This document shows positions 23,838-63,006 of a DNA stretch of 64,000 nt, piece after piece. The stretch is from contig NC_084763.1 in the NCBI RefSeq assembly GCF_028858725.1, positions 868,001 to 932,000 of the forward strand, written 5' to 3'. Position 1 is the first letter of the stretch. Each line of letters opens with the position of its first letter. The notes under the pieces were generated by a model. That model made no database searches. It was not told where the DNA came from and saw nothing but the letters and a program-made list of their open reading frames with translations. Made by a program: the position numbers and the translations under genes. This DNA comes from Colius striatus (Eukaryota; Chordata; Aves; Coliiformes; Coliidae).

Positions 23838-23969
23838 TTATTCTTGTGAGCTGAGATACTGTTGGCATTCAGGGTCTCCTTTCGTTTCTGGAGACCCAGG
23901 AATTCTTCTCCCGTTTTTTGGATAGACACACCAGCATCCAGCAGACTCCCCATCCAGTGACGTTTCACA
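23838..23969 (-). CDS. IGFBP1: IGFBP1 exon 4 (end of C-domain)
   Basis: Minus strand; acceptor AG is the complement of 23970-23971. It encodes CETSLDGESAGCWCVYPKNG, then RRIPGSPETKGDPECQQYLS and SQE-stop (TAA, 23838-23840). CWCV and the last cysteine of the thyroglobulin type-1 domain are intact. KGD is at 23874-23882, replacing the integrin-binding RGD of human IGFBP1. Confidence 0.96.
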   Translation of the reverse strand, partial: CETSLDGESAGCWCVYPKNGRRIPGSPETKGDPECQQYLSSQE

Positions 23970-26900
23970 CTAGAACATTATCATCAAAACAAACCCCACA
24001 ATGAGTAACTGCCAGAAGACCACCTGTGAGACTCTGCAAGCAAGGTGCTGGATGGAGGCAGGAGAGGGAGGGAGGGAGGGTCCTGCCATGCACAATGGTC
24101 CCTGCTCTGACAGAGCCACTAGCCAACACCCTGGTTGTTGAGGCACAACCCAAGCTCAGCCTTGAAACACTTTGCCTGCTCTGTGGTACGCAGCAGTATA
24201 GATATGGCATACCTTCCAGTGTGAGAAAGCAAATGGAGGCTGAATCTAGGAGAGCAGTGACTGGATGGTCTGGCTCTTCACCCAAGGAGGCAAAGAGGAT
24301 TGGGTATTTTTTTTTTCTTGGGGTAGGTGGGGGGTTGAACATATTTCTGTTTGTGCCTGATTAGATTCCAGGTCATGCTGTTTGTGAGACACACCGCAGC
24401 ACCATGCCCAAAAACAAGGAGTCTCGGTGACACAGATTTATGCAGACCTACTAAATTTGTGTGCATGACCTGTGGTTACAAGGGTGGGGCTTGAGGTTTG
24501 GAGCTTTAGTTAGGCTTGCAGATTACTCTCAGCCTAACTCACTACGGCTTTTTTTTGAGCGTATGGTGTAACCCATGGGCAGTAGAAATTGGTTCAGTTT
24601 TGTTTCACTTTCAGAGGGCAAATTTTGCTCCCGTGAGTTTTTTCGACTGCCTGTGTGAGTTTTTCACCGCTCAGGAGCCGAGAGCTGCCTTTCTCCACAG
24701 GGATGATTAGATCCTCAACAGGCTCTGCAGGCAGCACAGCAGATACTGGGAATTCATGTCCACTGGAAACAGGCTAATGAATGAGGTGCAATGGAGCTCG
24801 ATTCAGCTTGGGAGCACAGAGGGTTAAAGATTTTGGAGAAGGCCTCGTATGCACCTGTTCTGCGAATGGAAAAGTCTCCTGCCTCCATTGCTGTCAGCCC
24901 ACAGCTCCCTTTTAAGAGGAGGAGGACAAACCATCTGCTGCCACTACTAAGTATTGCTGTGCTCACAACCTGCTCCTCCAGCAGCTGCAAAGGCGGGCGC
25001 TGGGGAGCAGAGAGAGGGCTGCCAGAGGGCCGGCTGTGCTGGGCGAAAGGCACGTACCTGTTTGCTGTGGTAAAAGCCATTCCTGCTGCAGTTGGGCAAG
25101 TAGAATTTGTACATCTCCCCGCCGCTCCTCTGCTGAGCCTTCGCCAATTTATACAGGGCTCTGTAGAGCTCCTTCTGACAAGGTCCCTGTGGGAATACCA
25201 CGCAGAGGTTGTCAGTACCAAAATCACAAAGACACCAGCTAAACAAAAATGGAGCAGTGTAAAGCCAGCAGAAAGCTGAAAATACTTATTAGTCATATAA
25301 TCTGCACCAGGCTGTGCTTTGCATTTAGTTTTTCACTTGTTTCCGTAGGAGCACAGCCAGAAAACTCTGGTGTTGCATTTAGGCCTTTGTTTTTATTCTT
25401 TGAGGTATTTTCTGTCCTCAGAAACATGAGGATTTAAGTCCTTAAACTGCCACACAAGGAAATTTAACCTGTGCTAAGTAAACACATTACTGCACAGAGG
25501 GTACAATCTCTCCTATTATGGGGAGGTGCACGTTAGGAGACTGGTGTACGTGAGACTAGCCACGTTTTCTGGGTTGCCATGGCCCTGTGCTCTGTTGATG
25601 TATGGAGAATAGGTGCAAGACATATATAGACAGTGCAAGAACAAACATCTGCATGTTTGTTGTATTATGTACAGGACAGAGCTGTTGCCAGAGCAGGATA
25701 GAGAGCACCCCTGTGGCTCTGAGACCCAAACCCAAAGTGCCCGGAACCAGGGATGAAGAATACTTTGCAGCATTCACTGTTTGCACACTTTGCTCTCTCC
25801 CTTTTGCAAAGTCACAAGTGTGCCGTGCTTTAACGTGTTGAAGGGAGTGGGAGGGGAGGAGAAGTGACCCAACAAACATTTTTCCTTTAGGGTGAAACCA
25901 ATTGTGTCCTCTGCTTTTGCAAGGCCTCCCTCCCTGTGTCAGCCCCTCACCTAAGCGCTGCTGAGTCAACGGGCTTATTTGTGGCTCTGGCTGAGGAAAG
26001 CAGCAGCCTACAAATCAGAACCGGATCTACTAACACTTATATGTAACAGTTCCAACTAAAAATCAGTGATGAAATCCAGTTCTGGATGTGCAGTGAGGCT
26101 TCTTGGGGGGTGGTAGTTCACAGTTTTTGCCTTTTTTTTTTTCCCTTCCCCATTTTGGTCTGTGACGATGGCAAAATTGGGCTTATGCAGTGCACGGTTC
26201 TAACTCAGCTCCCGCTGGGGGTGTGCTGGCTGCCTGGGATGGGTCTGACTGTGGTTCTCTAGTGCCCTCAAGTGGAATACGGACTTGCTAGCAAAGGCCC
26301 CACACCCCCCTGCGCTTTTGCAATGTCAAAGGTAAAAAGCTTACTTGAATTGCTCAGCTTTCTCTCTTTTTACATGCCTCTACTTAATAGTGGTTCCTTC
26401 TGATCAGAAAGAAACATGGTTTGGTCTGTACTGGTGCTTCATCAGTAACTGTATGTATGGTCTCCCTTTTATTTCACTGAGCATGAGACCAGCGATAAAT
26501 GCCTTTTCTTAACTAAAACACAAAATGAGTCCAAGACTTTAATATGGGCTCGCTGGAAATTAAAGGCCCACGTTATAATCTGACAGAAAATATAGAGAAA
26601 GATTCAGTGTAAGACCCACCTGATGCACACTCAGTTTCATCGCTCCTACCTACTTTGCCTTTTCCTCAAGCACCTGACAAAGGCATTCCAAAAGTCTGTG
26701 TCCCGACCACACTGAACACCAGTCCCCCAGTGCTGCTGACAGAATTTCACACACGTTCTCACGCTGTGTTCTGAATCCAGAGCATCTACTGAAATGGTCT
26801 CAGCAAGGTTTGCAAAGAAAACCCACCTGCTCTTTCCATTTCTTGAGTTCCGATAGTCTCTTTGCTTTCATGTTCTCATAGGCTGTGATGGCATTCCAGG

Positions 26901-29442
26901 GGATGGATTTGTCCTGGCCAATGGGGAACATCAACTGGTAGTTCAGCAGCTGATCCTGGGTTAACTCAGTGCTCTCCAAGGGCATATCTTCAGGTTCAAT
27001 AGAGTCTGGAAAGGAATGATACTAAGGTGAACACCTTCAGTGAACTTTTATTTCTGAGTTAAAAAGGTAAAGAAAAAGAAGAATCAACAGAAAGTGGTAT
27101 CTAAGACCGATCCTTACATTACAGTAGCTCTTGCAAGAGTAATATGCTACACCTGCAGCTCAGCAAATTAAACTCATGTCACACATCCATAAGAGGATGC
27201 TGTTCTCTGACTAGTTGGTTGTTTTATGATCCTCTGAAATCACTCTAACCCCAAAGATGACACTGCAGCCAGTCTGTTGGAAATGAAAAAACTTTCTTAA
27301 CCACAGTGGGCTGTAGAGACTTTGCTGAGTGAGAAAAGACTGGAGTTCAACTTGCACTTAAATGTTGTGTTTTTGCCAGCATGACGGGACTCAGTTTTTA
27401 TTCAGGAGAGGTCCCGGTCCCATGTCATCTTGTGCTTTGTTATGTGGCTGGCCTCGCACCTAAGAAGGGACATCAGTTCACAGGAGCCAGCAGTAGACCA
27501 CCCTGGCCTGCAGTAGGTCAAATAGCCAGGGATATGTTTGGTTCTGTCTGATCACGGCTGACACGCCAGTGCCTAACTTGGTGCTTGCGAGCACTGGAAG
27601 CAAGAGAAGATCTTTGCAATTGCAGGGACTTGGTGTGAGAGAAAAGTTTGACATGTGCCTAAATAAATTGTTGGATTAAGACTGTCAAGAGTCATCTAGT
27701 GGACTAAATCCACCTATTGTTCCCTTTGCCAGTGTTTAAGAAAAAAAAGAAGGTGGAAAATCGAGGAAGTTAAATACTAGATCTTTTAACTGCAGGAGGC
27801 TTAGACCCTCAGTTTAGTCACTGTTCTCTGCCCTTTCCATCCCCACAAGTAGGAGAAACCAAAGGCCATGGTGATTTCATATCACCAGTGATTATTTCTG
27901 TAGTGCTACAGAGCTAACCCACATCACCAATGCATGAGCATAGCAGTAATGGCAGTGAAAATAACAACTTGTAAAATAATGACACAACACTGAGGAAGTT
28001 CCTGGACATCATACAGCACCAGATGCTGGCTATGTCTTTGCTCAAAGACCGTCTGGCTAGCACTGAACCACTTCAGATGTGTTCTATTCTTGAAATGAAG
28101 CCAGACACAAAGCTTGTTTAGGTTCTTTCCACACTGTATCTTTACTTTTGCAGATGGACTCAGAATTTAAAAGACCTGTCCTTCTCTAGTAGGACAGAGG
28201 TCTGGATGCACACCCTTGAAAAGATTTGTCCTACTCTAGTTAACTGCTAAAGAAAGACTTCCTATAGCTTCCCAGAAACCTTATCCCGGTTATTCTGCAT
28301 CAACCCATCACTACATGTGGGCATTTTCCAGCTTGCTGTTCGCTGCCACCATCTCCTCGATGGGATGCACCTGACCTCGCCCAGGTTTTCCTGGAAAGCG
28401 CCGTCCGCCCCTCCGCCTCCGATCCTCAGGCGCCCGCCCGCTTCCCCCCCTCAGGCACTCCTCAGCCTTCCCGCCTTTGCCTGGATCCCCCTCAGACCTC
28501 AGGCACTCCTCAGCCTTCCCGCCTTTGCCTGGATCCCCCTCAGACCTCAGGCACTCCTCAGCCTTCCCGCCTTCTCTCGCGTCTCCCTCAGACCTCAGGC
28601 ACTCCTCAGCCTTCCCGCCTTCTCTCGCGTCTCCCTCAGACCTCAGGCACTCCTCAGCCTTCCCGCCTTCTCTCGCGTCTCCCTCAGACCTCAGGCGCCC
28701 GCCCGCTTCCCGCTTTCTCTCGCGACCCCCTCAGGCACTCATCAGCCTTCCCACCTTCTCTCGCGTCTCCCTCAGGCACTCATCAGCCTTCCCGCCTTTG
28801 CCTGGATCCCGCTCAGACCTCAGGAACTCCTCAGCCTTCCCACCTTCTCTCGCGTCTCCCTCAGGCGCCCGCCCGCTTCCCGCCTTTTCTCGTGCTCCTG
28901 ACGCCGGGCGCCCTCAGGCGCGTCGCGCGCGCCCGGTCCCCGTCTCCTCAGCGCCGAGAGCTCAGCCGCCGCCACCCCCCGCTCGCCCCCGTCTCCTCAG
29001 CGCCGAGAGCTCAGCCGCCGCCACCCCCCGCTCGCCCCCGTCCCGTCCCGAGACGCGGTGCCGCGGTACCTGCCGGCTCCGCCGTCGCCCCGGCCTCGCT
29101 GGCGGGCAGGCACGTCCCTTGCCCCCGGATGAGGGCGGAGAGGGGCCGAGGCTCTCCCGCGGGGACGTGGCAGCGGAGGCCCTGCCGGCAGCGAGCCGTG
29201 TAGACCCCGCAGGGCTGTCCCGGCCCCAGGGCGCAGGTCTGGCAGCAGCCGCAGCCGGGCTGCCGGGCCGCCTCCGGGCAGCCGGGGGCGAGAGGCGGGC
29301 AGAGGGCGAGCGTCTCCGGGCTGCACGGCGCGCAGCGCACCGGCGGCAGGGCCAGGCCGGCGGCCGGGCGCGGGCCCAGCAGCGCCGGCAGCAGCAGGGA
29401 GGGCAGCCAGCAGCCGGGCAGCAGCGACCGCGGGCTGCTCAT
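23838..29442 (-). CDS. IGFBP1: Insulin-like growth factor-binding protein 1, complete gene
   Basis: Secreted, mainly hepatic IGF carrier controlled by insulin and nutrition in vertebrates. Coding exons on the minus strand: complement(join(23838..23969, 25058..25186, 26827..27005, 29070..29442)), 813 nt and 270 residues (human 259). Order: signal peptide (about residues 1-28), N-domain with 12 cysteines including GCGCCQTC and the RGQGTC end, a linker with the IGFBP1-specific LMFPIGQDKSIPWNAI and LKKWKEQ, then a thyroglobulin type-1 domain (GPC, PNCSRNGFYHSKQC, GCWCVYP, PEC). The start at 29442 is chosen because upstream in-frame ATGs at 29514 and 29532 overlap the TATA box or the expected cap site. 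The C-domain carries KGD where human IGFBP1 has RGD. Intron phases 1, 0 and 0 match IGFBP3, as expected for paralogues. Confidence 0.97.
23970..25057 (-). other. IGFBP1: IGFBP1 intron 3
   Basis: 1.1-kb GT-AG intron on the minus strand. Holds a G-rich run (24060-24080) and a T run (24308-24318). No other feature is seen. Confidence 0.85.
25058..25186 (-). CDS. IGFBP1: IGFBP1 exon 3
   Basis: 43 codons in phase 0 on the minus strand, donor GTACGTG after CAG. Encodes GPCQKELYRALYKLAKAQQR, SGGEMYKFYLPNC and SRNGFYHSKQ. It aligns with the human exon encoding ELYRVVESLAKAQ and FYLPNCNKNGFYHSRQ. Confidence 0.97.
25187..26826 (-). other. IGFBP1: IGFBP1 intron 2
   Basis: 1.6-kb GT-AG intron on the minus strand. 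A T run at 26133-26143 and otherwise unremarkable sequence; no repeat or exon recognised. Confidence 0.85.
26827..27005 (-). CDS. IGFBP1: IGFBP1 exon 2 (linker)
   Basis: 179 nt on the minus strand, acceptor AG at the complement of 27006-27007, donor GTGGGT. The first two bases complete an aspartate codon split with exon 1. Encodes SIEPEDMPLESTELTQDQLL, then NYQLMFPIGQDKSIPWNAI and YENMKAKRLSELKKWKEQ. The pattern STE.T...LL..., W.AI..Y and KKWKE is specific to IGFBP1. Confidence 0.96.
28428..28905. repeat. 48-bp GC-rich minisatellite in IGFBP1 intron 1
   Basis: About 11 tandem units of 48 bp (some 41 bp by loss of the AGACCTC word), built from CTCAGGCACTCCTCAGCC, TTCCCGCCTT and either TGCCTGGATCCCC or CTCTCGCGTCTCC. 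Interspersed units carry CGCCCGCTTCCCGC instead of CACTCCTCAGCC. The plus strand is strongly pyrimidine-rich. Long open frames across it are a consequence of the 48-bp period. Confidence 0.92.
28941..29040. repeat. 49-bp direct tandem duplication beside IGFBP1 exon 1
   Basis: Two nearly exact copies of a segment beginning CGTCTCCTCAGCGCCGAGAG, starting at 28941 and 28990. It lies in intron 1, about 30 bp from the exon 1 donor. Confidence 0.9.
29070..29442 (-). CDS. IGFBP1: IGFBP1 exon 1 (signal peptide and N-domain)
   Basis: Minus strand, ATG at 29442-29440, donor GTACCG. Starts MSSPRSLLPGCWLPSLLLPA, a hydrophobic signal peptide. The N-domain has 12 cysteines, with GCGCCQTC, CGVYTARC and LIRGQGTC. 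Ends in phase 1 (last base G joined to AC of exon 2). The -3 position is a purine. Confidence 0.96.
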
Positions 29443-29531
29443 CTCGCAGGCAAGGAGGGGCCGGCGGGAGGGGGAGCTCGGCAGGCTGAGGAGCCGCAGG
29501 CAGTTCACATACATTCGGCTCACCCGGGCCA

Positions 29532-29537
29532 TTTATA
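29532..29537 (-). promoter_or_regulatory. IGFBP1 TATA box
   Basis: TATAAA on the minus strand in CACTGTATAAATGG, 90 bp upstream of the chosen start codon. This places the cap site near 29505 and gives a 5' UTR of about 60 nt. Mammalian IGFBP1 promoters also have a TATA box. Confidence 0.8.
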
Positions 29538-29554
29538 CAGTGCTTTGCCCGGCT

Positions 29555-33872: not shown

Positions 33873-36800
33873 TTGAGACAATAACCAAAGGCTCCCTCTT
33901 ACTTTAATGTCTGGGGCTGTCACATGGATTAAATGCACATGAACCTCCCCTTTCCTCCCCAAACTAATACATGGCTTTTCAGGAGTAAGCCTTTCCACAT
34001 GTGGTAGGAAGTACCAATGGAGAAACAGTGAGATCCAGTCCTGGATCAGGGGCATCATAGCCACAGCCAGTTGCACATCTTTCTTAGGGGAAAACTCTCT
34101 ATGTGACAACAGCCGAAAATGTTTCATTTATATTGCTTGATACCTCATCAAATGCAACCATGGATATTCTTTTTCATAGGTGAGAGGCCAGATTTTTAAA
34201 GGAGCTTACTGCTAACCCAAATATGGAGTGGTGTTTCAAATTCCTGCTCTTTTCTTCTGAGGCTTCCTTGGAGGCTTTTCTCCTCCACGAGGAGATTTGG
34301 CTTACTACTAGAACCTAAAACACTGCTCTTTCACCTTTTTATCCTTTAAAAAATGCAAATAAAACCAGGAATAAGTCCTAGGACCCAGAGCACAGAAAGC
34401 CAAGAGGTCTGTTTTCTTTGGTTGTCCATCCTGTCAAGAGAGAAGCCAAAACCGGAGGAGACAAATATGCCTGAGTCGTGCCTGCTACAGAAACAGGCGC
34501 CGGGCCACAGGCAGAGCAGAACACAGCAGCCAGCCTGAAATTCTCAGCAGGAGAGCAAGAGGGCTGTTACTGACAGCAAAGCAGGAGGGCACGTTTCTCT
34601 GGGCCGTTTACAGCTGTTTTCCATGTTCAGGTTGTTCACTCCTGCACTGGTTCTTACACAAAATGAGGCAGTTTCCTGATGAAAGCCGTCCCTGCCTTTT
34701 GTCCCGGGGCGCTTCTGATTTCAGCAATGTCATTGCTATTCACCATTATTATAACATTGCTGTCAGTGATGCCAGGAGTGCTTTTTTTATTCAGGTTTCA
34801 GAGCCTTTACTGTTTCCCCAGAGGGTGCAAGACAGGACCCTGGGGCTTTGGTCAGCTCTAGAGAGCGTCAGGCTTGCGCAGAGAGCTGAGCGCACAGAAG
34901 CTGCTGCTGGGACTCAGAGTTGCCTGAGCCGTTCGAACATCACCACTGCCAAACTTGTCATAGTTCTCAAATGGGAAAGCTTTTGATGCTCACTGCAGCC
35001 TTAATCTACGTGTGTTTACTATTTCAAAGCCTTTGCAAGGCATCTTTAATGAGGTATAGGCAAGTTCATGCTGTCCAGGGGAAGAAAGATGTGCCAGCTC
35101 AGAGGTGCTGGCCCCTGCTTGGGACCCCTGAAGCTTTTAGTGTGAGCAGGGCAGGGCTTGAGTTCTGTGTGAAGAGGCAGGGGAACAGCATGAAAACAAA
35201 GTAACCATGAGACCTAACACCCTAGTTCAGGCAGGTCACCCTGTGTGGCACCTGGTTGTGGGCAAATCCAGCTCAGCAAGCATTTTAGAGAGCACTAGGG
35301 AACTGAAGTTGCTAACTCCATTTGTCAGCAGCTTTGAGGCTCCTGGAAGGAGAGCATACTTGCAAATGAAGATGCGAAGGGGTTAATCCAACCCGTTATT
35401 ATATCCAAATCACACTGGAGATAAGATTGGATGTCACACGAATATTTGCCTGACCTACTGTATAAATAATCACTGCCATCAAACACAGAGATCACACAGA
35501 GGCACTGGATTAAAACAGAAAAGGAAAAATCAATATAATTAATGTATAATGAACCAAAGCAAAAAGCCAAGATTAGATGGTCGAGGAGGCACTTTGTTGC
35601 AGATGAAAGCAGAGCGCCTCTCTTTACAAACAAACAGCCATTTGACCACGTGCAGTAAATCACCCTGGTTTTGCCTCCCGTACCAAAGCCACGTGGAAAA
35701 GAAGAAAAACCTTCCAGTGCCCCACAGGCTGGTGATGATGGGCCAGTAGTAAAACACTCGGACAGACACAGAGGAGAAATACCAGGTGTCTCAGAAGCTT
35801 TTCTCTCGTGAAATCTAACAGCTGCTGCAGAAATGCTTGTGTGTCTATAAAAGCCAGACTTTAATGTTGCTGGTGACTGCTTGACTGTGACAAAGTCAAC
35901 ATAAACACTTTCCCCCAGCAGCTTTTTAAGGTACTTTTCAACACTTTCATGTATATCACTTTTCCCTCTCCTCTGGTTTGACCATGTCTCAAAGCTAATT
36001 ATCTGGTGAAAACATGTCCTGGGGACTTATTGAAAGAAACAAACAAAAAAGACACCTTTTAAAACATCAGTCCAAGCCTTACTTTCCTTTAACTCCACTG
36101 ATTTTGCATGCTGAGAAGCTGGGATGGCCAACACTGGCCTTCCTGTTAGGAAGTGAGAGTCTGCCACCGTGTTTTTGCTTGCCTCATGCATCTCCTCTCC
36201 AATGTCAGGCATCACAACCTTCTCATTGTGATGAGCAGAGCTTTGCTCCGTGTTCTTTTTTTCCTGTGATCAGTTTTTATTGTCACCTGGTTGTGGCCAA
36301 AGAAACCCCAGCTGGTGCTGGACACGCTAGCCAAGGTCAGGATACGCTATCAATCTGTGTGCTGGCGTCACGCTCTTTGTAGGATAATTCCCAACACTCT
36401 GGTTTCAGGGGACTTTTCTGGGGCTGCCCAGGGGTGCCAGATTGCACTGTTCTCCACCCTCCACCCCTTATTTCTCCCCTCTAGCTTAGTTCCAACTGTA
36501 ACACGTATCCACATGAGCATGTGTGTTGTAACTGACAGTTCTTCATTGCAACCGCGAGCCTTCTGTCTAATTGCAGCACTCTCCCTGCCACGGAGGCAAA
36601 GCCAAGCCTGCTGCTGCTTTTGAGCTGCCACTTGTGCAGCTTTGGGGCTTTTGTGAGGGTGGTTTTCTTTTTCCTGTTGGAGAGGAACAAGTGCTACAGC
36701 AGCCATCTCCTCTGCATGAGCACTCTCACGCAGCAGCGATTGCATTTAATTGCATGCTGGATGATGCAATACATTGCTTGGTGCTCTCTTGGCTGGGAAG

Positions 36801-39800: not shown

Positions 39801-41964
39801 AGTAGCCATATTGCCCAGCTTCCTCTTGCCTCAAGCACAGCCTGAGAAGGACTTTCCCAGCAACTACATCCCTGGCCTGCTAAGGACTGGAACCTGGTCC
39901 AAATGGCCTTTAATGACCTTTTTATTTGGCCTAGCATGATGGAGGAGGTCAGCCTAAGCAGACACAGGCACTCAGGGGGATGACAGACGAGTATGAGCTT
40001 TGGCAGAAGACTGACAATGGGTATCAGATGGGCAAGGAGGAACTAGGAGCAGGCATGGAAGACAGAGGACTTCTGTCTTGTAACAGAGGAAGCCTCCAGA
40101 GGCCAGGTTAGAGAAGACATTAGAAGGCCAAGGAACTGGATGGGCTTAGGCAGGAGCCAAGAGTGATTGGGAGAGACAAAAGCAGAAGCAGTATCAAGAC
40201 TTTGAGGCCACCATAAGAAGCCTGAAGAAGGAACAAGTGGAACTGGCTATCTGGGAAGGTACAAATAAACAAGAGACAGAACTGGGTCATTTGGATTAAG
40301 TATTGGGTCATGTGGCCAGACTGATCCGTGCTTGTCCCAGGGGTAGAGGAGTGTTTTATGCTAACCTTGTGCTTGCCTGATCTTAGTTCATCCCCCCTGG
40401 CACAAATCATAGATGCTGATGAAATGCCTGCAAGCCTAAGGGGAATAGCAGCACATCTGCAACCGTGCCTATTTTATCTCAAAAGCAGCTTGGGATCCGC
40501 ATCAGCCAGAAGCTCCCTGGTTGCCAGAGGAACCTGAGGAGGCCAGACAAGCAGCCTGAGTAACGCACATAAACAAATACCAGAACATTGACTAAACATC
40601 AAACCAAGCGAGCATGCCCTGGCTGGTGACCCAAGGGGCAACATCACCCCCCTGCCCGGCTACCACAGGTCCGAGGACAAGGCTGTTCTCCTGAGAAACT
40701 CCAAAGAGTTTCACTTCAGGAATCATTAGCAAAAACATCCTAATTCCTTTAAATCCTGAGAGAGGTCATAAAGCCACAAACCCGCTCTTGCATTTTTTGG
40801 TCAGCCTCTCTCATAACATTGGCTTAGGCCACGCTCCTGTCCTCTGCCATTTTGGACACGAGGTACAACAAGCTGCAGCATGGGAGAAGGACATGCAAAA
40901 AGCTTCCCTTGCCTCCATCCTCAATCTGCAGCTTCCTTTGAACAGGACCTCTCCCCTTGGGGGTGATCAGGCAGTGCCTGGGACAGGCTGCAAAAACCAG
41001 TATAGCCAGGAAAGGGCACATGCTGGAGCCACACAGGTGTGTGCCCAGTGTAGCTCTGTTCTGGGTTCCTGATGCAGACATCCCATAGGCCACTCAGAAG
41101 TGTTCAGTTCTGACTAAAAATTAAGCAGCAGCTAGCAGTAGGAACCAACACAAGCATTATGCTTTGTGTCACTTCTTGAGTGGTGCTTCAGCAAGAGCTG
41201 CTGTGAGCTCAACGGCCATCCTGCAGACACAGCTGTCAGGGAAGATGCCTTTCTCCTGCCCTTCCTGCTCCCCACACAGCAGCTCCAGGGGAAAACAGAA
41301 AACCTATAGGCCCCCAAAGCACACAGCTGAGCACTGAGGATCTCCCAATGCAACAGCGAGGTGCATTTCCAACCCTGGGCTGGGGCAATCTCATTTTGAG
41401 CCAAAACTTCAAAACAAGCCATCATTAATTAGTAATCTTTGGAGAGTGGCCTCCCTCCTTGGTGCCTCTCACTATTTCCTCATCTCCCCAGCTCGTAGCA
41501 AAAACATTCCCGATTGCATCAGTTCTGATTACTCTTTAGAGGAGGAGATTCTCCTTCGGCTAACCAGGATTACATTCTGTGTGGCCACTAGGACTTTGTC
41601 ACTTAAGGAACTTCAGCACCCCCATGATTCGGATGCTATACAATAGAGTGTGGTCAGGAAGAGCTGTAGTGAGAGGAAGGATTTTTACACAAAGTTCTCC
41701 CTCTCTTCTTTGTTCCAGGCCTTCAGCCACTCCCAATTGACACTGGCTCTCATGGAGAGGCACTTCTTCACTCATACCTGACCCCTCTTAAATCTAGAGT
41801 GGCAAAAACAATCACAAAACTGAGAAACAAGCAACAGAAAAGGGACATTTTGGAAGGAAAAGAGGAAGTCTAACAGGCACTATAGTCAAATGGGTGATCT
41901 ATTGGAACCAGCTGTTCTGGCAGGGAGGATGCAATAGTACTAATTCCATACCTAGTTCAATCAA

Positions 41965-42051
41965 TCAGGCTTCTTCAATTGTCAGTTCATGGTCAGCTGC
42001 TTCCCCAAGGGCTATAAACCGCTGAATCAGCCATTCCCCTCGTTTCCTTAA
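41965..42051 (-). CDS. CCDC201: CCDC201-like last coding exon
   Basis: Minus strand, acceptor AG (complement of 42052-42053) after TTTTCTTTTCCATCCC. 28 codons plus TGA: LRKRGEWLIQRFIALGEAAD then HELTIEEA. It joins the upstream exon in phase 0. Too short to show as an open frame by itself. Confidence 0.75.
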   Translation of the reverse strand, partial: LRKRGEWLIQRFIALGEAADHELTIEEA

Positions 42052-43499
42052 CTGGGATGGAAAAGAAAATGCTGTTTAGTCAACTGAATCCAGTCAGATG
42101 TCACCTGCTTTAACAAACAACCAGCCACCCACAAAGGCACTATGAACCCAATCGGATGTTGGCTGAAGTTTCCCTTTACTCTCAGAGCAGACAAGTTTTC
42201 CTGAGTTCCCAACACACTCAGGAACAAGACAGGGGGAAAAGTACAATAACATCAAGGCAGAACAGGATTTGATGGCTTCACACTGACATGACAGCCTTCA
42301 AAATCAGTTTCTACCGCCCTGCTATCCTTTCTAGAGGCTTTCACTTGGCCTTTGCCAATAATAAAAGGTTTATGAAGTTCAATGCTCCTGCTCCAGAGAG
42401 CAGAAAATAAAGCTATTAATGTAATAAGTCCATTAATCCAAGTTTCCCCAGGAAACCCCAAACCAATCTAAGGGCTGCACACACCAGATCCCATTTGCAG
42501 TGACTGACATTCTTCTAAGTCACTACGACTGGGATTAAACAAGGAAAAGCAGCAGGTTATTTGTTTCTCCAGTTTTAGTTCACTTGTTGAGAAACCTGGT
42601 AATTTAAATCACCAGTTTCTTCCCACTCTTGAGCTCCTCCTACGTAGAGATCTGTTTTTTCAGACCCATACTTTTGCACTGGTGTGCACAGCCAGTCATG
42701 CATGCTCACAAGATAAAGCAAGCACTATCTTGAAGACCAGACTATCTATCTCACCCCATCTGTGATTAGGAGCGATACCCCAGAGCCCATCAGGGCTATG
42801 ACCCAATTCACAAACACACATTCTCACTGGTAAAGTTGTGGAGGAGAAGTTCCCTTTCTAAAGTATCCCCACACCAGTGGAAACATCTGTATGTTCAGCA
42901 CTGGTAGGAGGTTGTATAGCTCAGCTGTTTCATAACTGAGAGAAAGCCATTACCAAAAGATCTCTATCTATTTTCTTCTTTCTTTTTTTAGTTATCTGAT
43001 CATCTTTGATCCCAGGGAGGCCGGTAACAAGCCCTGAGGGTCCACTCTGAGCAGTCACTGCAGCCTTCTCGACTGGTTTGGTGGGGGCTTCAGCTTCCAC
43101 GTTGGGGACAACCTCATCGCTTGGCTCTTCATTTGATTCAGAGGCCAGCACTGTGGAAAGCCTCTTTCTAGAGAACACAACCCGAGAGCTTTGGGTCATC
43201 TCCTTGCTCGATTCTTGCGAGTCAAGTGCCCTTGAAAGCCTCGTGGGGGTCACAGGAGGGAAACGAGCTTCAACACTCACAGATGACACTTGAGCTAACA
43301 GTCTACTTGGATCCAGCTTTGGCACTGGAGATCCATAAACTCTCCTACTGTCACCTTGGTCCTTGACTGACTGATTTGCCAGATCTGGAAGGGACGGCAT
43401 TGTTCTTGACAGCAGCGAGTCCACTGGAGTGCTGTGTTTCACCATTTTCTTCCTCAATGATCTCTTAACATTCAGAGAATAATAATCTTCCTCTGACAT
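41965..43499 (-). CDS. CCDC201: Probable CCDC201 (coiled-coil domain-containing 201) homologue
   Basis: Two coding exons, complement(join(41965..42051, 42954..43499)), 210 residues (human protein about 187). Function is essentially unknown; recent human genetics links CCDC201 to oocytes and ovarian insufficiency. I assign it from recalled blocks in the same order: LRKKMVKHSTP near residue 20 (human LRKPLKHSTP), SRKRLSTVLAS in the middle (human RKRRLSTLWAS), GLPGI before a KKRKKK basic run, a conserved tryptophan in the last exon, and HELTIEEA-stop (human HELTIEDD-stop). The spacing from GLPGI to that tryptophan is 25 versus 24 residues. Between the blocks the sequence is Ser/Pro/Glu-rich and poorly conserved. 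No signal peptide or membrane span. The basic stretch could be a nuclear signal. It lies between ADCY1 and IGFBP1, on the same strand as both. Confidence 0.75.
42052..42953 (-). other. CCDC201: CCDC201-like gene, intron between coding exons
   Basis: 0.9-kb intron on the minus strand, donor GTAATG after TTG and a pyrimidine-rich acceptor. No repeat recognised. Confidence 0.7.
42954..43499 (-). CDS. CCDC201: CCDC201-like main coding exon
   Basis: 182 codons from the ATG at 43499 to the donor at 42954/42953, phase 0. The exon probably begins at 43519, after CTTGCTTTCTTAAG. The reading frame stays open to that acceptor with no earlier ATG, and would continue into the proposed upstream exon up to a TGA without meeting a start, so the ATG at 43499 is the best start. 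Starts MSEEDYYSLNVKRSLRKKMV and ends TKKRKKKIDRDLL. Confidence 0.78.
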
Positions 43500-43519
43500 C
43501 TCGCAGTCAGGTTTAGTGC

Positions 43520-45004
43520 CTTAAGAAAGCAAGATGATAAAATCGTGTCACTGGTCACATAGTAAGGAATACCACGGAAGCCATTCAGCTCCTGCTGCCA
43601 AAACAAACCCAAGGTGTTCCTGTCCTCATGTCTGCGTTCTGTCTTTAGCTGGGCTTCATCCTTTGCACAGACAGGTGTTCTTCAAGGGTTTGGAAGAGCC
43701 ACGTTGACAACAGCACAGTAGAGAAGGCAGCTTATCATGCACAGGCTAGTCACTCTTATCCCAGCCCTCTGCATGTGGAGCTCCACACATGCTAGGTATC
43801 TTTTTAAGATACCTCATTAACTACATCATCACTAAAACAGGTATTTTCCTCCTTCAGAGTACACAAACAATACACTGTCAGGGTTGCAGCTGCGAGTCAG
43901 GTAGCTGAGAACTGTTAGATGTCAAAGAGATTCCCATAGTGTAGCAAAAGCTCAAGTGCTCTAGGGAGATGTGCAAAGAGCTGGGCTCAAGCAAGCAACT
44001 CTTAGTCCAGTTGCCATGGATTTTTCCTTTTGCTTTCTTAAGAGGGGCTCACAAACCTCTCATTCCCTTCTGCTTACTTGACATTTGGCTTACTTCTGCC
44101 AATCTTAAAAACTCTGATCCTAAACCAACTGCGTTCTGGGCAAGTGTGGCCTCCCCTGAATTTACAGCAATAGCAAAGTTGTTGGTGACAGCATCTCCCC
44201 TCCCTGTTTGCCAGCGTCCCAGAAAGAGGAACCTGACTTCTGACACACAGAGATGACCAAGGTATTTATCTTAAATAGAATTTAAAACCTAGTTACCTTA
44301 ATTAGACGAGCAGTTAAATACTTCTAGTAACTGTTGAACTCTTTGCTTTCAGGAGGTAGCTCAAGTATTTCATGCAGGTTGATTGCATGAAGCTCATTAA
44401 GGGGACCCAATGCCTCAACACAACAGGAATCAGGTGGTTTGTAGTTTTTTTTCTCCTTAGAAAAAGGATGTGTGTGAACAACCCCTTTACCATCTTTATT
44501 TGGGTACTTATTTCTCCTTAGCAAGCATAACACATTATAAGCAGCGCTCAGCACTACCTTTTTCCTTTGCTGTTCAGCCAGATTGACCTCCTTTAGTCTT
44601 TATCATAGAACCCTACTGGCAATAAACTTGCATGGTTAAATTTAGAGTTAAATGGTTAAATAAGGAGTTTGCAACCCTCTCCATCCCCAGCTATACCTTT
44701 TGATGCCTCCCCTTTACTCCTGGTTCAGATGGTCAATTAAAATGCACTTATTCAAAGGTAGTTTTTAAAGAACATTTTCAAGCAAGGTTTCCAAGGAAAA
44801 ACAGCCACCTTTTTTTTTCTCTTTCACTCTTTCCTGTGCTTTAAAAACAGATCTCTACAAGCAAAACCATGCTTCTGATTACCTCTTTTAACATACCCTT
44901 ATAGTCTAAAAAAAACCAACAGAAAAAGAGAAACCCCTCGAGAACACCAGTCTACCATAGAAAACATATCTTACAGCAACTCTGACTAGAAACAACAGAC
45001 TTAC
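43520..45004 (-). other. CCDC201: CCDC201-like gene, 5' intron
   Basis: 1.5 kb between the proposed donor GTAAGT (complement of 45004 downwards) and the acceptor at 43520-43521. A 77-codon minus frame at 44324-44554 has no recognised similarity and I do not call it. Confidence 0.5.
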
Positions 45005-45155
45005 CAGACTCCAGAGGTTCTCTCTGACTTCTTCTGCCTCTCAGGTGATTTGGTTTCAGTTCACTGCTCGCTTCCCACCAGCCTGTGCTGCAGACTCCCT
45101 TAGTCACTCCTTTAGCATCTTTTTGTGTGTTTCAGCTGTGCTGCTGACTGAAGGA
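45005..45155 (-). other. CCDC201: Possible 5' UTR exon of the CCDC201-like gene
   Basis: Ends in a near-perfect donor (GAGTCTG followed by GTAAGTCTG). Spliced to 43519 it leaves the main frame without an upstream in-frame ATG and with an in-frame TGA in this exon. It contains one short out-of-frame ATG (four codons then TGA). The 5' boundary is arbitrary; a T-run region follows at about 45.15 kb. Confidence 0.4.
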
Positions 45156-48100
45156 AAAAAAAAGAGAACCAACCTTCCACTAAATGGAAATCTAAGATGA
45201 ATTAATCATAGGAAAACGGGCCAGCCAACTTACCTCTGTGCTGTGTTTATTGCTACTTAACCTCTGCTGCTTGCTGCCTATTTCAGTCACTGGTTAATTG
45301 GCTTCACCTGGCTGATTAAGGCTCGTTGAGAACCTGCCCCAAGATGAAGGTGTGTCTGGTGGAGGAATATTTGTTGATGGGGTACATCTGTTCTCATCCT
45401 GCTTTTACTGTCTCTTTGCCTCTTTTGCCCCCCAAAAAGTAACTAAACAAAAGTTAACTCTGCCATGAAAAAGGCTCTTCTTTCAGGAAAGCAAGCTGCA
45501 GGTTATTTCGCCCCAGTCTGAATTCCACAGTGCTTGCAGCCAACAGCTGTGGGCAGAGCAGCCTTCTGTCTCCAAGCGAGTGGCTTCAAAATGTCACCTC
45601 CCAGATGAGAATGCCACTGGTCTGAAAGGAGATGTTCCAGGTGGAGGGCTGCAATTTTTGCTGCTGCAGAAAAGCAGCTGGGCTGCCAGTCAGCCCAAGG
45701 CAGTGAACAGCCTGTCTCACAACACTGCTGAGCAAGCACAGGCACGAGGCAGCATGGGCCCAAATTTTGGGGTAGCCCCTTTTGATGGAGCATGACCCAT
45801 GGACCTTTAAAATCGAAGACAGCTCTAATTTCAGGGCCTTGTGCAGGTGACCTGAGGTTGTGGAGTGCAGACCCAGGGGGTGAGAGGCAGATCCTGCTGG
45901 AATTTGAACTTGTGGTTCCAGGGAGTCTGGGCATTTCAACCCCAATCATAAACCAGCCTCTCTTGCTGCATTAATAATTGCACTATGAATAGAGAATCGG
46001 AGCTACCAGCTCAATATTTAGGAATAACAGTCTGTCAGTATATGGGGAAAGTTGCTAGGTTTAAATTATGTGCCCCCAAGGAACTGAAAGGGAGCTTGAG
46101 AAATGGAGGCACTTTACAATCACATGGATCGCACGAGTAAACATCCTGGGAATAAATAGTCTGTCCAGGATCAGCTATTTATTTCCTAAACTCCCAAGGG
46201 AGGTTCCTACAGGAATATTTTGAGAACTACACAAAAATTATTTAGAGATATTTCTGTCTGGGCAAAAAAGGAGAGAAAAGTAAAAAATAATTCCCAGTCC
46301 TTTCTAAACACAGAGGAGGCTGGAGCAACCCTCACCTCCCTCTGAATGTCAGTAACTAGCTTTCAAACCAGTGGGCTTGTGGCTTGGTGAGCAAACCCAC
46401 CAGGTCAGCTGTGCTGTGCCCTGCAGGGCTGGTTCCTTATATAGCCCCAAGCAGCAGCGGGGGTGGCTCTGCGCTCCACTGGCATTGTTTTACGTGTAGC
46501 TGAGGTCTGGGGGATGTGGGCTCGGCAGTGAGAAGGTTAATGGTTGGGCTTGATGAGCTTAAAGGTCTTTTCCAAACAGAATGACTCCATGGACACCTAA
46601 ATTAAGAGCCTTGCAAGCTGCTCCCACTGTTAGCCACGGTTTCTCCTGTGTCGTGCATGTTTGGGGTTTTATGAAGCAGTGGCAGGATGTTACAGGAGGG
46701 ATGTAACCACGCAGAGATCAGACACAAACCTATCCCAAATTAATGTGAGCAGGTGGAGCTCAGCAGACCAGGTATTACCTTCACCTTGGTGCATCTGGAG
46801 CCTGGTCATGAGATGCCCAAGCTCCGGCATGAGTGGCACCATGAAGGCTTCTTGCATCTTTCAAAGAGCGGCACGTGCAGTGTCCTGCACTCACACCTAT
46901 CCACCATGAGCCGTTCCTTCACTAAAGTGACCTTCCTTGGTGTGACCACCTTCCTCCTCAGTATTGCCTACCTGATATTCTGGAGCAGCAGCTCCACGGG
47001 CTTGGAGCCAGCTGCTTGGTCTGTGTTTACACACCTTCCTTCCTCTAGCTGTGTGATGCACGATGGCACAGGATCCTCGAACTGTAACGATGCACCTCTG
47101 TGTACACTACAGCACACCTCCCCTTGCTTTGTGTTCGTGGCTTGAAAGACTCCTTTGTTGGTCTCATTTTAGGAGATAACTTCATCTCCTTTCCTAAATT
47201 TGTTCCAAAGATAGTACATGTACGAGCTTGCTTTCCAGCAACTCTCATTTTTTTGCCTTTGGAAGGATTTCCCTGTGGTTGAAGCCTTCTGCTGAATTAT
47301 GGTGTTACGATCACTGGACAAAAATGCAGCACCTTTGCAGCTGTCAGAACGTCCCATTTTTCATCGTGGCAATGACCTTTTTTCTGGCCAGAGGCAAGGT
47401 CCATGTCTCTGGCTACAGTGTCTGGGAACAGCCCTAAATGTGGTATAATTTCCAGCCTGACTCCTGTCATAGGAGCATCCTGGACAGACGGTTTGGGGGT
47501 TTCATAACCCATCAGAAAAAAAAAGGCTCTGTCCTAGCAGTACACTGAGTCACGGCACGTGCCTCAGGTTACACACGTCTGCAGGTTTAGGGTAGTGTAC
47601 CTCTGCTATGGCTGGATGTGTCCAGATGGACAACAAGTCTGACCAAAACCTTGTCACACTGACTGTGTCACGGCTGCTCAGGACGTCAAACCCGTATTGA
47701 AAGAAGGGAATGACCTTCCATGCGACTAACTTCAGCGAGGGTTTGAGGAACGAGACGTGAACCATTGCAAATACTCTTAAATGCTTTTAACTTAGGTGTC
47801 AATGTTGTAAAACTATGACCCCCATGTCCCCCAGTGTCAGGGAACTGAAAGTGGCATTGTGACAGCCATTCCTTCTCCTGCATTCAGGCAACACTGGGGC
47901 TGAGTACACAAAGGCCTGAAGGAACACACCTTTATCCCTCACGGACGAGCTCAGTGCCACATCCCTCCTCAGCGAGGACCAGTTTTGCCCTCAGGTGCGG
48001 AGCTTGGTGTCTGTGTGAGAAGAGAGGATTAAGCTGTAAATATTTAAAGGTGCTACTGTCTTAAGATCCATTATAAAACCTTAAGGCATCAAAAGTCGGT

Positions 48101-51060
48101 GCCTCTCTTGGCTAAACACACTGGTAATATACAAGCAGCCACTGGAAAGCCATAGTGGGGAATGCCAAAGTGAGAAAAAGTATCATCCCTTTTAGCCAGA
48201 GGTCTGGCAGATTAATATTTGACTTGGAAAACTCTAATTACCTCAGTAGTAAGCAGCTAGGTACACTCCAATAGCAGCAGAGGTCATGGACCTTGACAAA
48301 CCAATGCGCCACCACCTGCCTTTGTAATTACGTCAATGACTCCTCTTCATTAGCTGCTTACCCGCTTCAGTCTCACCAGAGGGCCACAATGTGCTCTACC
48401 TGCACGTTGTTTATTCACCAGACGGTGTCCTATACAATTCCTACGTGTTTCTACACCCCAGAAGTCGATGGGAGTTAATATTCAACAGGGACCTTTCCTC
48501 AGGAACTCGCTGTGTGCTTTCTGATATGACTGCTCCTTTCTAATTGTGTTGGCAGTGCTGCCGAGGAGCACATAATATTATTGCCAAAGTTCAATAAACA
48601 TACAGAGTAACTATAGAGTTTGGGGGAAAACAGTCGGCGATGCTTCCCTGACCTTTGGCAACAGCGTGAGCACAGTTCGGCCAATGCCAAACAAATGTCT
48701 AACTGCAAATCTCTCAGCGACCAGAAAATGATGGATTTGCTTTATTTTATTACATCTAATAATAAACAAAAAATGCTGTGTTTGTGCAGTGCAGCAGCGT
48801 GGCCAGTCCTGTGCAGGAGGCCAGGCCAGACGGGGATCAATGGCTCTTTCTTGTCGCACTGGAGCGGCGCGGACGAATCCCCAGGTGGTCTGAGATGAGG
48901 GAAGGCTGATGAAGTCACCAGAGTCCCACTGACTGCGTTCTGCAATAGGGAAGCTCCCCTGCTTTGTCTCTGGCGCTGCAGGAACAGGTATGAGGGCCAC
49001 CATTGGCCTCTAAAAGCTGTGTCTAGTAAACCGAAAGATAAACATTGACAATAACCCGCGACTGCTCCTCTATCACTAGCTCCTCCTGCCTCTTCATTGC
49101 TGGCTCTCGGCTAAATCGTGGACCAGGGCCTGGGTGATAAGTACAGAAACAGCCTAAGCCTGGCAGGCTCATAGCAATGTCACTTTCTGTTCTCTGAGCC
49201 TGGAAACCTACGCAGACAGCTGCAGCTGATGGCAGAAACAATCTGCGCAGGGCTGGGCGTTTAGGATCACATCAGGACTCCTGTATCTCAAGATCCCCAT
49301 CCTCAGATGCTCTCTCCACAGTTCAGTGTGTTTACTGAGAGCCAGAATTGCCACAGACAATTTCCACTACATGGGTCACTTTCCAGCTATGGCTTTTGTT
49401 TGCTTGTTTTTGCCCCCATCAGAATGGCCCAAATGAGAACACAGCCCATGACTGGTACCTGGGTAACTGTTCCTTTCCATCGAACATCACGTTCTTCCAG
49501 CAGGAACAGAGCGTTAGGTGACCCACTGCCCTGGGGAATGGCTGTGAAACTGGAAGGCTCTGGCATAGACACCGTGGCAATGCACCAATAATGCCTGGAC
49601 GACGTACACTGTGTTCTCATTTTCCATTCTCCTCTCCTCTTCCAAATTGACAACATCCCCTGGTAACGTTTTTGGACAAGAACACCGGTCTCAGTCCTGG
49701 GTGATGCAGTCTCTCTGGAATTTCTCACTCAGGGAATGCATTTCTACAGCACAAACCGCCCAGCACTGAACTGCTGCTCCTGTCCAACAATGTAACCAGG
49801 GGATCTAAGCAACCCCCTGCTGGTCCTACCTCATTCTTCCAGGGAAACGAACGCTTGTGCGCTGTGATTCTGTCTCTGAAGCGATGCAGCTGTGCAATGG
49901 GGCATGGCAGGAAGGTGTTTCCAACTAATGAGCTGGGTAATCAATCCAGAACGCACACTATGTCATTAATAGATGTGTATGTACACGTTTGATATTGTAT
50001 CTCTCTGTATGTACACACAAAAGCGCCCCAAAACAGCACGGGGAGACGTACAGTTCAGTATTAAAGAGTCAAAACATCACTGTGGCAGAACAGACCCAGG
50101 GGGAGATGGAGGCCAGATTTCCAGCTTACTCTGACTGGAGGGCAGCTGTTCTGATGGACACTTCTGAAGATCTGGCACGCCGTCTTCCAGAGGGGAAGGG
50201 GAAAACAACACAAGAAAGGCTACACGAGGCCTCAAGCACTTCTCACCGGCGCAAGGGCAAACCAAGAACAGCTCCATCACAGCCGCTGTCATCACAGTAA
50301 TTCCGTGCGGCTCACGCTGTGCTCTCTAACCTGCAAGAGGAACAGCTGGGGAGCCCGAGCCGAGCCTTTGGAATAAAACCTCTTGCATCTGAGCCCAGGC
50401 TGTTTCCATCACTGGGGACTCTGCACTTCCAAGTTATCTCAGGGCATATCTGCACGGACAGGCGTGACGGGCCCGAGCGCCTCCGCTCCCGCTCCGAGCT
50501 GGCCAGATGGGAGCCTGCGCTGCTTTGGAAGCCGTACAGTCCAAGTGCTTTGGTCCTGTGCCCAAGCTTGCGGAGGCTCTTCAGAGACACACGTTACCTG
50601 TGTAACGTACCAACGTTCAGATGCCTTCTGAGTTAAACCCGCGGGGCTCTGCACATCGGCCGGCCCCGTATCCTGCGCGACACAGGCTGCCTGTGCAAGC
50701 CACGCTCGGCCCGAGTTGGCCAAGTATTCCTGGCTCGTGGAAAGGGAGGCATGAGCTTCCCCCTCCCCGTCTTCTGGTCTACGTGGCCAGTATTTTGCCA
50801 GTACTTGCACATGTTTACTTTCTTGTGCTTGCACAAGGGATGGAGCACTTGGCCCAAGGCGGCTTCCGCTGCAGTCAACGCAGAGAGTCAACAAGGCTCA
50901 CAGGGGAGCCGAACTGCTCCCACGAGGTTCTTCAGTTCAAAGCAATCGTGAAAGCAGAGTCACAGGATCCCTAGACGCGTGTTCTTGGTCTGAAGGCTGA
51001 GAGGGCGCAGTTGGACCCTCTGAGAGGCACAGGGTAATGACCTTGATTAAAAACACGAAG
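45156..51060. other. Intergenic region between the ADCY1 3' end and the CCDC201-like gene
   Basis: 5.9 kb with one CR1 tail and no gene I can support. A 130-codon plus frame (46753-47145) contains a hydrophobic stretch but no recognisable family and is treated as doubtful. The promoter of the CCDC201-like gene should lie in the first few hundred bases; no TATA box or CpG island stands out. Confidence 0.6.
46503..46593 (+). mobile_element. CR1 LINE terminal fragment, plus orientation
   Basis: GGCTCGGCAGTGAGAAGG, TTAATGGTTGGGCTTGATGA and GCTTAAAGGTCTTTTCCAAA then AGAATGACTCCATGG match the last 90 bp of a CR1 element. Confidence 0.88.
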
Positions 51061-51091: not shown

Positions 51092-53564
51092 CAAGCAAAT
51101 TTTTTTTTCCTTTATTTTTAATCAGATTCCAGAAATTATAATAGTGCAAACACTCAGTATAAAAGTTGCAATAAGAAATTTACATTCACATTCAACATTT
51201 CAGTCCATTCACTTTTTAACATAAAAATAGGACAAATATTCAATTGCTCTTCTCAATGTAACAATCCTGAAAAAGACTGGAAGATACTCTACAGTTTTCT
51301 ATTTACATAAAAATAGACCCGTATTATTAATGCAAATCTATCATCAGAAGTTACCCAGCGTCAAGTTATTGTATTGTACTAGGTATATACATACATATAT
51401 ATAGGGTGTATAGCTATATAGGTATAAAAAATATTTATAGGTTCGGTGGACTACAGTAGTTGGGAAAAATGACACCCTGACTTGCTGGTTCAGTCCTTAA
51501 AGTCAGGACGGTGCCTCCGATTCACCTGCAAAACTGTTTCTGTCGTTCCCATGTTTCTCCTCCTGGTCCCTTTGAAGTCACTGGCAACACTCCACTTGAC
51601 ATCAGTGGGAGAGGAGCAGGCGTTAAGAGTAAGGTCTGACAGTCGAAGTGAGTGTTTCCAGTCACCTCACTGGGCTGCAAATCCGACTCAAAGATCTCCT
51701 GACGCCAATTAAAGGGAGGGAAGGATGCACTGGGTTTCCCCTTTGAGGAGTGGAATATTTCTACATCGTGCTGACACTTTGTTTTGCTTTGTTTCCCAAA
51801 GTCTAATCAGAATATCCAAGTTAGTGTGGAAGCATTGCAAACACCTGCAGGTTACGCAGCTGGTAAGGCTGCTCTTCTTACTGTGTCCTTCAACCAGCCT
51901 TAGAAAACCCCAAGACTGTCTCTTTCCTTGCTCTTGTTTGTTTGATAAAGAGTGGCACCCAGACGCAGGCAACACGACTGAAATGGGTTTGCATGCACCC
52001 AGTCCAGGGCTAGGGACGAAGAACTGGGCTGCCTCACTGTGTGCCGCTCCTTCGGGGAGGAGAGCAGGGTCAAGCTGGTGCCTGCACTCCTGCCACGGGG
52101 TACATGTAGCCCTTTCAGGTTTGCTGTCACATGTGCTGCTTCCTAACCAGATTCTCTCAAAGCTCTTTCCACCTGAACACCTAGGAGGTGAAAAATGTGC
52201 TTTCCGAAAATGCAGGCAGGCATGCCTGGCTCCTTTGCCTCTTGGTGCTGTGTCACTATCACATTTAAATACACCCAGGAGGCTGAAAATGCTGGGTAAG
52301 CCCACAACAGACACCGTGCCATCACGTGTGGGCAGAACCATTCTGCACGTTGAACACAAGATCCACGTGCCTTTTGGCTTCCTGCCTTAGGCTGCTGAAC
52401 GTTTCAACACAAAGCCAAGAAGGACCCATGTATGCTTTTAAATCTTTCCAATCAGCAGATCAGAAAAACACCTGGCATCTCGTTTCCAAGCAGAACCTAT
52501 GGCAGTGCACCAGAAGGGCAAAAATGAACCTCCTGAGAGCAGAGAGCACCAGCACCAACCAGCAGGACAAATCCAGGCAGACATGAGCTGATGCACAAGT
52601 GTTAGTGGCTAGAGATGTTAAGGGATGAGCCAAATTTGGCTGAAATCTGCTTGAAACTGTGAAATGTGGGCATCAGTACCGTTTTGCACCCTTACCCATA
52701 CTCTGGGTACAACCCTACACACAAGTGTATTATGGAAAGAGAACACCCAGGATGAGGTTCTGAACCTCTTTTGGGATGTCACTGAAAGCAGCATCACCAC
52801 TCTGTAACTCTCTGCATTGGGTTAGATTATACTAGAAATGGTAACAGCTCTTGGACTCTGCCTTTTAGACCAGGAGCTCCAAAGCATTACTTTCATCCTT
52901 GAGGCGTTCTGTAACATTTTCCAAAGCTACCTCTGTGTTACAAGCAGGAAGGAATTCCACGTGGACAACGAGTTTCTACCCTAACAGTTTAAACCTGGAG
53001 CTCTGAAGCCATTTTGTGATGGCAGGGGTAATTCACTTTCACCTACACCTCACTGAAAATCCTCAGCGTGCTGCTGGGGTGGCATCTGGAACTGAAGGAC
53101 AGACAAGCCTGGCACCCGTGTGCGCTGAGGAGCCAAAGACACGAGCAATCGCCTCAACAGCTTCTCTCAACTGATGCCACCAGTGATGGCTCTGGGACGG
53201 AAGCAGCAGGTCAGGCACTTGGAAGTAAGACACGATGGTGTGCGCAGCCCCAGGAGTTAAAGCACACCTCAGCCTCGCCTGCGACGAGCACTGTGAGCTG
53301 TTGCTCCAGCAGCAGGACAAGCTCTGCCCAGCAAACGTGGCACTGCGGTTACAAGCTGCACGTAAAGTGTTCTGCATGGTTTTGATCAACGTGTTGCGGA
53401 AGCCTGTTCAGGTAAGGAGGGCAGACGGCTTTCTCAAGGGAGCTCCAAACTATCTGGGCAGACCTTTTTCTGCAGAAGTCAGCTCGCTGTATGTGCTGAG
53501 CTTCCTAGGACATCTGCTCTTCCTTAGCTTGGACCCACACACACCCGCGTGTGGCCGCCCTCCG

Positions 53565-53645
53565 CGAACACGTGGAGCACTCCTTGCGCCCACACACCTC
53601 TGCGGACACATGGAGCACTCCTTGCGCCCACACACCTCTGCTGGG
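53565..53645. repeat. 38-bp short tandem duplication
   Basis: GGAGCACTCCTTGCGCCCAC occurs twice with a 38-bp offset (first copies at about 53574 and 53612), followed each time by ACACCTCTGC. A partial third copy precedes them. Confidence 0.8.
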
Positions 53646-61670: not shown

Positions 61671-62009
61671 CTAGGCCTCCTCCACGGGCGGCACGGAGGG
61701 CAGGTAGTGCAGAGTCTGGTTGGCGTGAGGGGCGGGCGCCTGGGCGGCGCCGGGCCCGGCTTTGGCGGGGAGGCTGGCGGCTGAGGACACGGACGGGCAG
61801 CTGGTGCCCAGCTTTGTCTGAATGTTTGCTCTCCCGTACGGGTACATTTTCCGCTCTAGGTTTAAAGACCGTGTTTGTGAGTTGTTTCCATCGGCCTTTC
61901 CTTCCAGGAAATAGGTCAACATTTCGCCCTTTCCCTTCACACTGACTTTACCCCTGCACACGAACTCGTAGCCGCACCTCTTCAGTATGCGCTGAACCTC
62001 TTCTGTCAC
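61671..62009 (-). CDS. ADCY1: ADCY1 last coding exon
   Basis: Minus strand, acceptor AG (complement of 62010-62011) after CTCTGTCTGC. Begins [20 protein letters not shown] in phase 0, 112 codons, stop TAG at 61671-61673. The first codon is GTG, which is valine here and not a start. The tail beyond LEG is Ser/Ala/Pro-rich and less conserved than the catalytic part. Confidence 0.96.
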   Translation of the reverse strand: MTEEVQRILKRCGYEFVCRGKVSVKGKGEMLTYFLEGKADGNNSQTRSLNLERKMYPYGRANIQTKLGTSCPSVSSAASLPAKAGPGAAQAPAPHANQTLHYLPSVPPVEEA

Positions 62010-63006
62010 CTGCAGACAGAGAACACCACAGAGCCGTTAGCCTTTCCTGATCGTGTAAGGCTAAACCCAGAACTGCCCACCCTTCCCCATTTTGCTCCCC
62101 TGTCGTGAAACACACACAGGCAGAAGGAATTAGCACCTACTGCTGCTCTGGGGCTCACTTGGAACCTTCTGAAGGAACTAGAAGTCACCCACCAAGCTGG
62201 AACCTGAGAAGCAGAGCTTCCAGGCTCGAGCTGTTCAGTAATTGCAGGACCAGATCGAGCCCCGTCCAACAGCAAGGTGTAACCACGCTGCCTGCTGTTG
62301 TAAGCTAGATCTCTTCCAGTGACGCTCACTTATCCCAGAAGAACTTTTGATGCCTGGAGACAGGTATTTCGGACAAAGGACTGCATGAGTTCGTTGAGCT
62401 TTCCAGAGGTGCAGCACAGCTTCCAGCCAAGCTCCCATAGGAGAACCTCATTCTCTCTCTGCGCGGTCTCTCTGACCCAAAGTGCCCAAGGAATTTGTAA
62501 AGCTGTATAAAAGGCAGCAGGATGCAGACGGACACAGGTCCTCTCTCCTTCTGGTCCTTATTCAGGCACAATTCCTCTGGCACGAGGACTGGCCCGTGCA
62601 GCGTTGGTGTTCCCAGGGTCGCCTCCAACTGCACACAAGGCAGCACGGAACCCCGCTGCTTCTGGTGGAAATGATTTACCTGAGCATTTCCTCAACTCCA
62701 AGAGCTGAAACACTGGTAGACAGCTACACCTCTGGTGCTCCTATCAGCTCCAGGATGTTGCCTTTTTCCTAAGAGCCACAAGATCAAGCAAAGCTGCATC
62801 TTCCAAGGGGTACTGAAAATGTAGCTACCGGTGAAACAGGAGGCGGGTGAAGTTCGCAGAACTGTCCCAGAACACACTCACCTGAATTTTCCCCTGCACT
62901 CCAGTGCTGTCCATCCTGCTGGCCACGTTCACGGTGTTCCCCCAGATATCGTACTGCGGCCTTCTGGCCCCGATGACTCCAGCCACCACCGGCCCGACAT
63001 TGATCC
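61671..63006 (-). CDS. ADCY1: Adenylyl cyclase type 1, last two coding exons (partial gene)
   Basis: Ca2+/calmodulin-stimulated membrane enzyme converting ATP to cAMP, chiefly neuronal. Coding exons complement(join(61671..62009, 62882..63006)), the last 153 residues; the rest lies beyond the right edge. The segment is the end of the C2 catalytic domain: [37 protein letters not shown] (with the Asp, Asn and Arg that bind adenine and phosphates in class III cyclases), IQVTEEV, then [15 protein letters not shown] with the catalytic-site lysine, and LTYFLEG. The tail [17 protein letters not shown]...PSVPPVEEA is ADCY1-type (human ends SAAAGKEA). Minus strand, like IGFBP1, as in mammals. Confidence 0.96.
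62010..62881 (-). other. ADCY1: ADCY1 last intron
   Basis: 0.87-kb GT-AG intron on the minus strand. Nothing else recognised. Confidence 0.9.
62882..63006 (-). CDS. ADCY1: ADCY1 penultimate coding exon
   Basis: 125 nt on the minus strand, acceptor TTTGGCTTTAG, donor GTGAGTGTG. The first two bases complete a glycine codon begun in the preceding exon. Encodes [20 protein letters not shown], then [20 protein letters not shown] and Q. Confidence 0.97.

Follow-up and report, generated by a model that had tools for sequence, protein, structure and literature searches.

CCDC201 is a gene of the ovary, and a normal reproductive lifespan in women depends on it. The human coding sequence of 187 amino acids is described as 'conserved to birds' in the legend of Fig. 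2C of Mudge et al. 2019 (PMC6886504), and the same paper reports transcription of the human gene in female reproductive tissue and gives the mouse gene as ENSMUSG00000087512. Carriers of a homozygous CCDC201 stop-gain reach menopause about nine years earlier (Oddsson et al. 2024, as cited in PMC12680335), and this link between homozygous loss and early menopause is what makes a bird orthologue relevant. What CCDC201 and CCDC66 do in the oocyte has been termed largely elusive (PMC12884753). Strict restriction of CCDC201 to the oocyte is not certain, because the gene is listed as differentially expressed in cattle liver (PMC12148182) and in cultured human corneal tissue (PMC9917909). Literature combining chicken and CCDC201 consisted of Mudge et al. 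and PMC12239803, the latter naming CCDC201 in its reference list only, and Ccdc201 was not recognisable among the genes in the available text of the FIGLA paper (PMC1906760).

In the present study, we analysed a candidate for this gene in a 64-kb stretch of Colius striatus DNA (hereafter, the window). The candidate occupies positions 41965-43519 and is flanked by IGFBP1 on one side and by a membrane adenylyl cyclase on the other; the three genes share the minus strand (Table 1). The top PDB match of the thyroglobulin-repeat segment 23841-23969 was IGFBP1, and the top PDB matches of the catalytic exon of the cyclase (62828-63049) were adenylyl cyclases 5, 8 and 9. We take this cyclase to be ADCY1, by position, and the candidate then lies at the place expected for CCDC201, as far as the inferred name ADCY1 holds. 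A second IGFBP-like gene has its thyroglobulin-repeat exons on the plus strand (6394-6597 and 12473-12652), and its position suggests IGFBP3.

Table 1. Features of the candidate CCDC201 locus and of its neighbours (positions in the window)
Feature	Position	Strand	Details
IGFBP1, downstream neighbour	23841..29532	-	IGFBP domain 29014-29532; thyroglobulin repeat 24950-25285 and 23841-23969
Candidate gene, last coding exon	41965..42051	-	28 codons plus the stop codon TGA; product LRKRGEWLIQRFIALGEAADHELTIEEA, a predicted amphipathic helix
Candidate gene, intron	42052..42953	-	902 nt, phase 0, GT...AG; from splice translation and splice-site scoring
Candidate gene, exon with the bulk of the coding sequence	42954..43519	-	ATG at 43499; acceptor-like site before 43519; donor TTG/GTAATG at 42954
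ORF with the terminal exon of a membrane adenylyl cyclase, upstream neighbour	61674..62036	-	presumed from a motif at about 61.9 kb

Human CCDC201 likewise lies between an adenylyl cyclase and IGFBP1/IGFBP3. In the pig, TNS3, CCDC201 and ADCY1, among others, appear together among the differentially methylated genes of one interval (PMC8207654), and an interval of human chromosome 7 contains both IGFBP3 and CCDC201 (PMC10366082); these gene lists define a common interval and not strict adjacency. The synteny with ADCY1 and IGFBP1 that the initial annotation had assumed agrees with the mammalian lists as they are published, through ADCY1 in the pig and IGFBP3 in human.

The proposed gene model, two exons joined in phase 0 into a protein of 210 residues, proved accurate. 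The first segment of the coding sequence, 43499..42954, has 546 nt or 182 codons, and the second, 42051..41965, has 87 nt with the TGA counted in; spliced together, they are translated without interruption to the stop codon, and the product of the two minus-strand exons, 43519-42954 and 42051-41965, ends in HELTIEEA. The open frame begins at the acceptor-like site TTCTTAAG, with 43519 as the first exon base, and the first ATG (43499) has a purine at -3. The intron starts with GTAATG and ends with TTTTCCATCCCAG. The acceptors at 42051 and 43519 scored within the top 0.7% and 1.4% of the minus-strand AGs, respectively, and the donor at 42954 is weak, since 13.6% of the minus-strand GTs score equally high; these ranks are rough. 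Four alternative acceptors with more than 4 bits at 41000-42940 would yield tails of just 4 to 16 residues. A scan of 43560-50000 for an upstream coding first exon (donor score of at least 5, in-frame ATG, right phase) gave no candidate, and the ATG at 43499 was therefore retained as the start. Neither AATAAA nor ATTAAA occurs on the minus strand at 40501-41964. The stretch 43520-46500 contains 11 matches to CA[CG][CG]TG as a raw count; the nearest upstream E-boxes, CAGGTG and CAGCTG at 43672 and 43887, are not evidence of expression in ovary or oocyte.

A motif search of the 210-residue protein recovered every block that had been claimed for it, in the order claimed: LRKKMVKHSTP (residues 15-25), RKRLSTVLAS (111-120), GLPGI (160-164), KKRKKK (171-176), Trp 189 and HELTIE (203-208). 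According to the initial annotation, the same blocks would stand in the same order in human CCDC201, and the rest of the bird protein would be strongly diverged from it. The protein also contains three [ST]P sites, one of which is TPTR, and a basophilic KRLS site; the Lys/Arg run KKRKKK may be a nuclear localisation signal. Among proline-free windows of 18 residues, the peak helical (amphipathic) moment was that of residues 185-202, which the last exon encodes. Disorder of the protein is a guess from its composition, because in the charge-hydropathy relation its mean hydropathy of 0.431 lies just beyond the boundary of 0.420, towards order. Searches of the 210-residue protein against Pfam and PDB gave no match with E up to 10, and the 64-kb window gave no Rfam match at gathering thresholds. 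The viral and prokaryote genome collections, scanned for stray vertebrate contigs, yielded 18 and 31 pattern matches, respectively, none of which was confirmed.

The length of the open reading frame says little about coding. In simulated 3.5-kb stretches (1000 runs for each of three models), the longest ORF reached at least 196 codons in 25 runs under the order 2 region model, in 22 under the order 3 region model and in 43 under the exon composition model; because 22 to 43 of 1000 simulated regions equal it, ORF length alone is just moderately unusual and weak evidence. The codon positions are more informative, the first being poor in T (0.148) and the second poor in G (0.154). The codon-position chi-square of the coding sequence (26.0) was equalled by 4 of 2000 stop-free simulated frames under the exon model and by 7 of 2000 under the region model, and the value for the whole ORF (26.2) was the highest of 46 unmasked ORFs of at least 120 aa. 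The mask (2400-4000, 28200-29700, 53500-53700 and 60200-62000) covered tandem-repeat areas, IGFBP1 exon 1 and the last exon of the cyclase; since two known exons were removed along with the repeats, this comparison is mostly with non-coding ORFs. Second among the 46 came a minus-strand ORF (36371-36745, 125 codons, chi-square 16.9), which is situated between IGFBP1 and the candidate. Asymmetry per codon was equal in the two (0.134 in the candidate, 0.136 in this ORF). By a plain codon-usage score, the proposed frame ranked first of the six with +5.8 bits, the others lying between -4.2 and -19.8, and the candidate ORF was not among the 25 best of the window's 952 ORFs, with 0.03 bits per codon against 0.13 for a cyclase exon. 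The composition-corrected margin did not discriminate, being reached by 582 and 262 of 2000 null frames. The coding evidence from the Colius striatus genome alone is moderate.

One possible explanation of these observations is a chance ORF in intergenic DNA, the motif match to human CCDC201 then being spurious. The lengths reached in the simulations agree with this explanation, as do the weak donor, the ordinary codon-usage margin and the ORF at 36371-36745 with its equal per-codon asymmetry. However, the total codon-position asymmetry was rarely matched by null frames (4 and 7 of 2000), a strong acceptor opens directly into the open exon of 28 codons, the location is the one expected for CCDC201, and conservation of CCDC201 to birds has been published (PMC6886504); we consider a chance ORF improbable. 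An alternative possibility, to which we assign a somewhat smaller probability still, is that the two exons are genuinely coding but belong to another, lineage-specific gene, which lies in this interval by chance. The neighbouring ORF, with its equal asymmetry per codon, could be taken to favour such a gene. In total asymmetry, the candidate nevertheless ranks first of the 46 ORFs compared, and a CCDC201 that is reported as conserved to birds (PMC6886504) and listed with ADCY1 in the pig interval (PMC8207654) argues for the known gene at this place.

The locus could also be a CCDC201 orthologue that is decaying, or one whose gene model differs in the last exon or in the start. The weak donor GTAATG and the lack of a canonical polyadenylation signal in 40501-41964 are consistent with this, but 210 codons free of stops speak against decay, the other four acceptors give only the short tails described above, and no upstream coding exon emerged from 43560-50000; of the three alternatives, we regard it as the most improbable. 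The reading that we prefer, with a probability of roughly 0.9, is that the candidate represents CCDC201 in birds: an orthologous, fast-evolving gene of the female germline that has stayed at its ancestral position, with ADCY1 and IGFBP1 on either side. The intact two-exon frame, the codon-position asymmetry, the good acceptors, the amphipathic peak in the last exon and the early menopause after homozygous stop-gain favour this reading, and the weak donor, the missing polyadenylation signal, the codon usage, the unremarkable ORF length and the negative Pfam and PDB searches weigh against it. The neighbouring IGFBP1 and cyclase genes, the pig and human intervals and the conservation statement of 2019 support orthology; on the basis of position and of this published conservation to birds, the candidate is very probably orthologous to CCDC201. 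The homology to CCDC201 claimed initially is partly supported, by position and by the legend of Mudge et al., and its block matches to the human protein are putative. An origin before the split of birds and mammals, claimed as well, is already contained in Mudge et al. 2019 (PMC6886504). Like the candidate, the gene they describe is small and has more than one exon separated by introns; it had been missed by annotation. The human protein has 187 amino acids, against 210 residues in Colius striatus. That CCDC201 reaches birds is therefore already known, and known biology is confirmed here. Because conservation to birds is in print (PMC6886504), our result extends the set of gene models by a further species and is not a discovery.

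A bird orthologue reveals the short segments that have persisted through fast divergence, and thereby helps to locate the working part of CCDC201. Bird CCDC201 would be a small protein: its length would be about 210 residues, it would carry short linear motifs and a Lys/Arg run, and it would have an amphipathic helix at the C terminus. In the oocyte, it may act as a small, largely unstructured adaptor, in which the N-terminal motifs KHSTP, TPTR and RKRLST would serve as docking or phosphorylation sites and the helix of the last exon would bind a partner; loss of CCDC201 might then shorten the life of the follicle pool. The human stop-gain is reportedly Arg162Ter. A text search of the literature for the identifier of this variant gave no match. 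A stop at residue 162 of a 187-residue protein would take away the final 26 residues, a length similar to the 28 encoded by the last exon of the bird gene; this suggests, but does not prove, that the C-terminal helix is the essential part of CCDC201. So late a stop would tend to escape decay, and the ovarian insufficiency would then result from losing the helix rather than the entire protein. A tentative proposal, which we hold to be rather doubtful, is that the last exon of 28 codons already formed the functional core of CCDC201 before birds and mammals diverged and has done so ever since; if it is true, birds could model this ovarian insufficiency. A possible remaining lead is that the human truncation may remove the stretch that matches the 28-residue last exon of the bird.

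Three tandem repeats accompany the neighbouring genes. A 48-bp repeat of 8.6 copies (28449-28846) adjoins IGFBP1 exon 1, and a 42-bp repeat of about 22 copies with a higher-order period of 325 bp (2495-3405) lies upstream of the IGFBP3-like exons. Directly downstream of the last exon of the adenylyl cyclase, a minisatellite (60532-61643) with a 38-bp unit, about 29 copies and 89% matches carries long ORFs on both strands, which are probably spurious.
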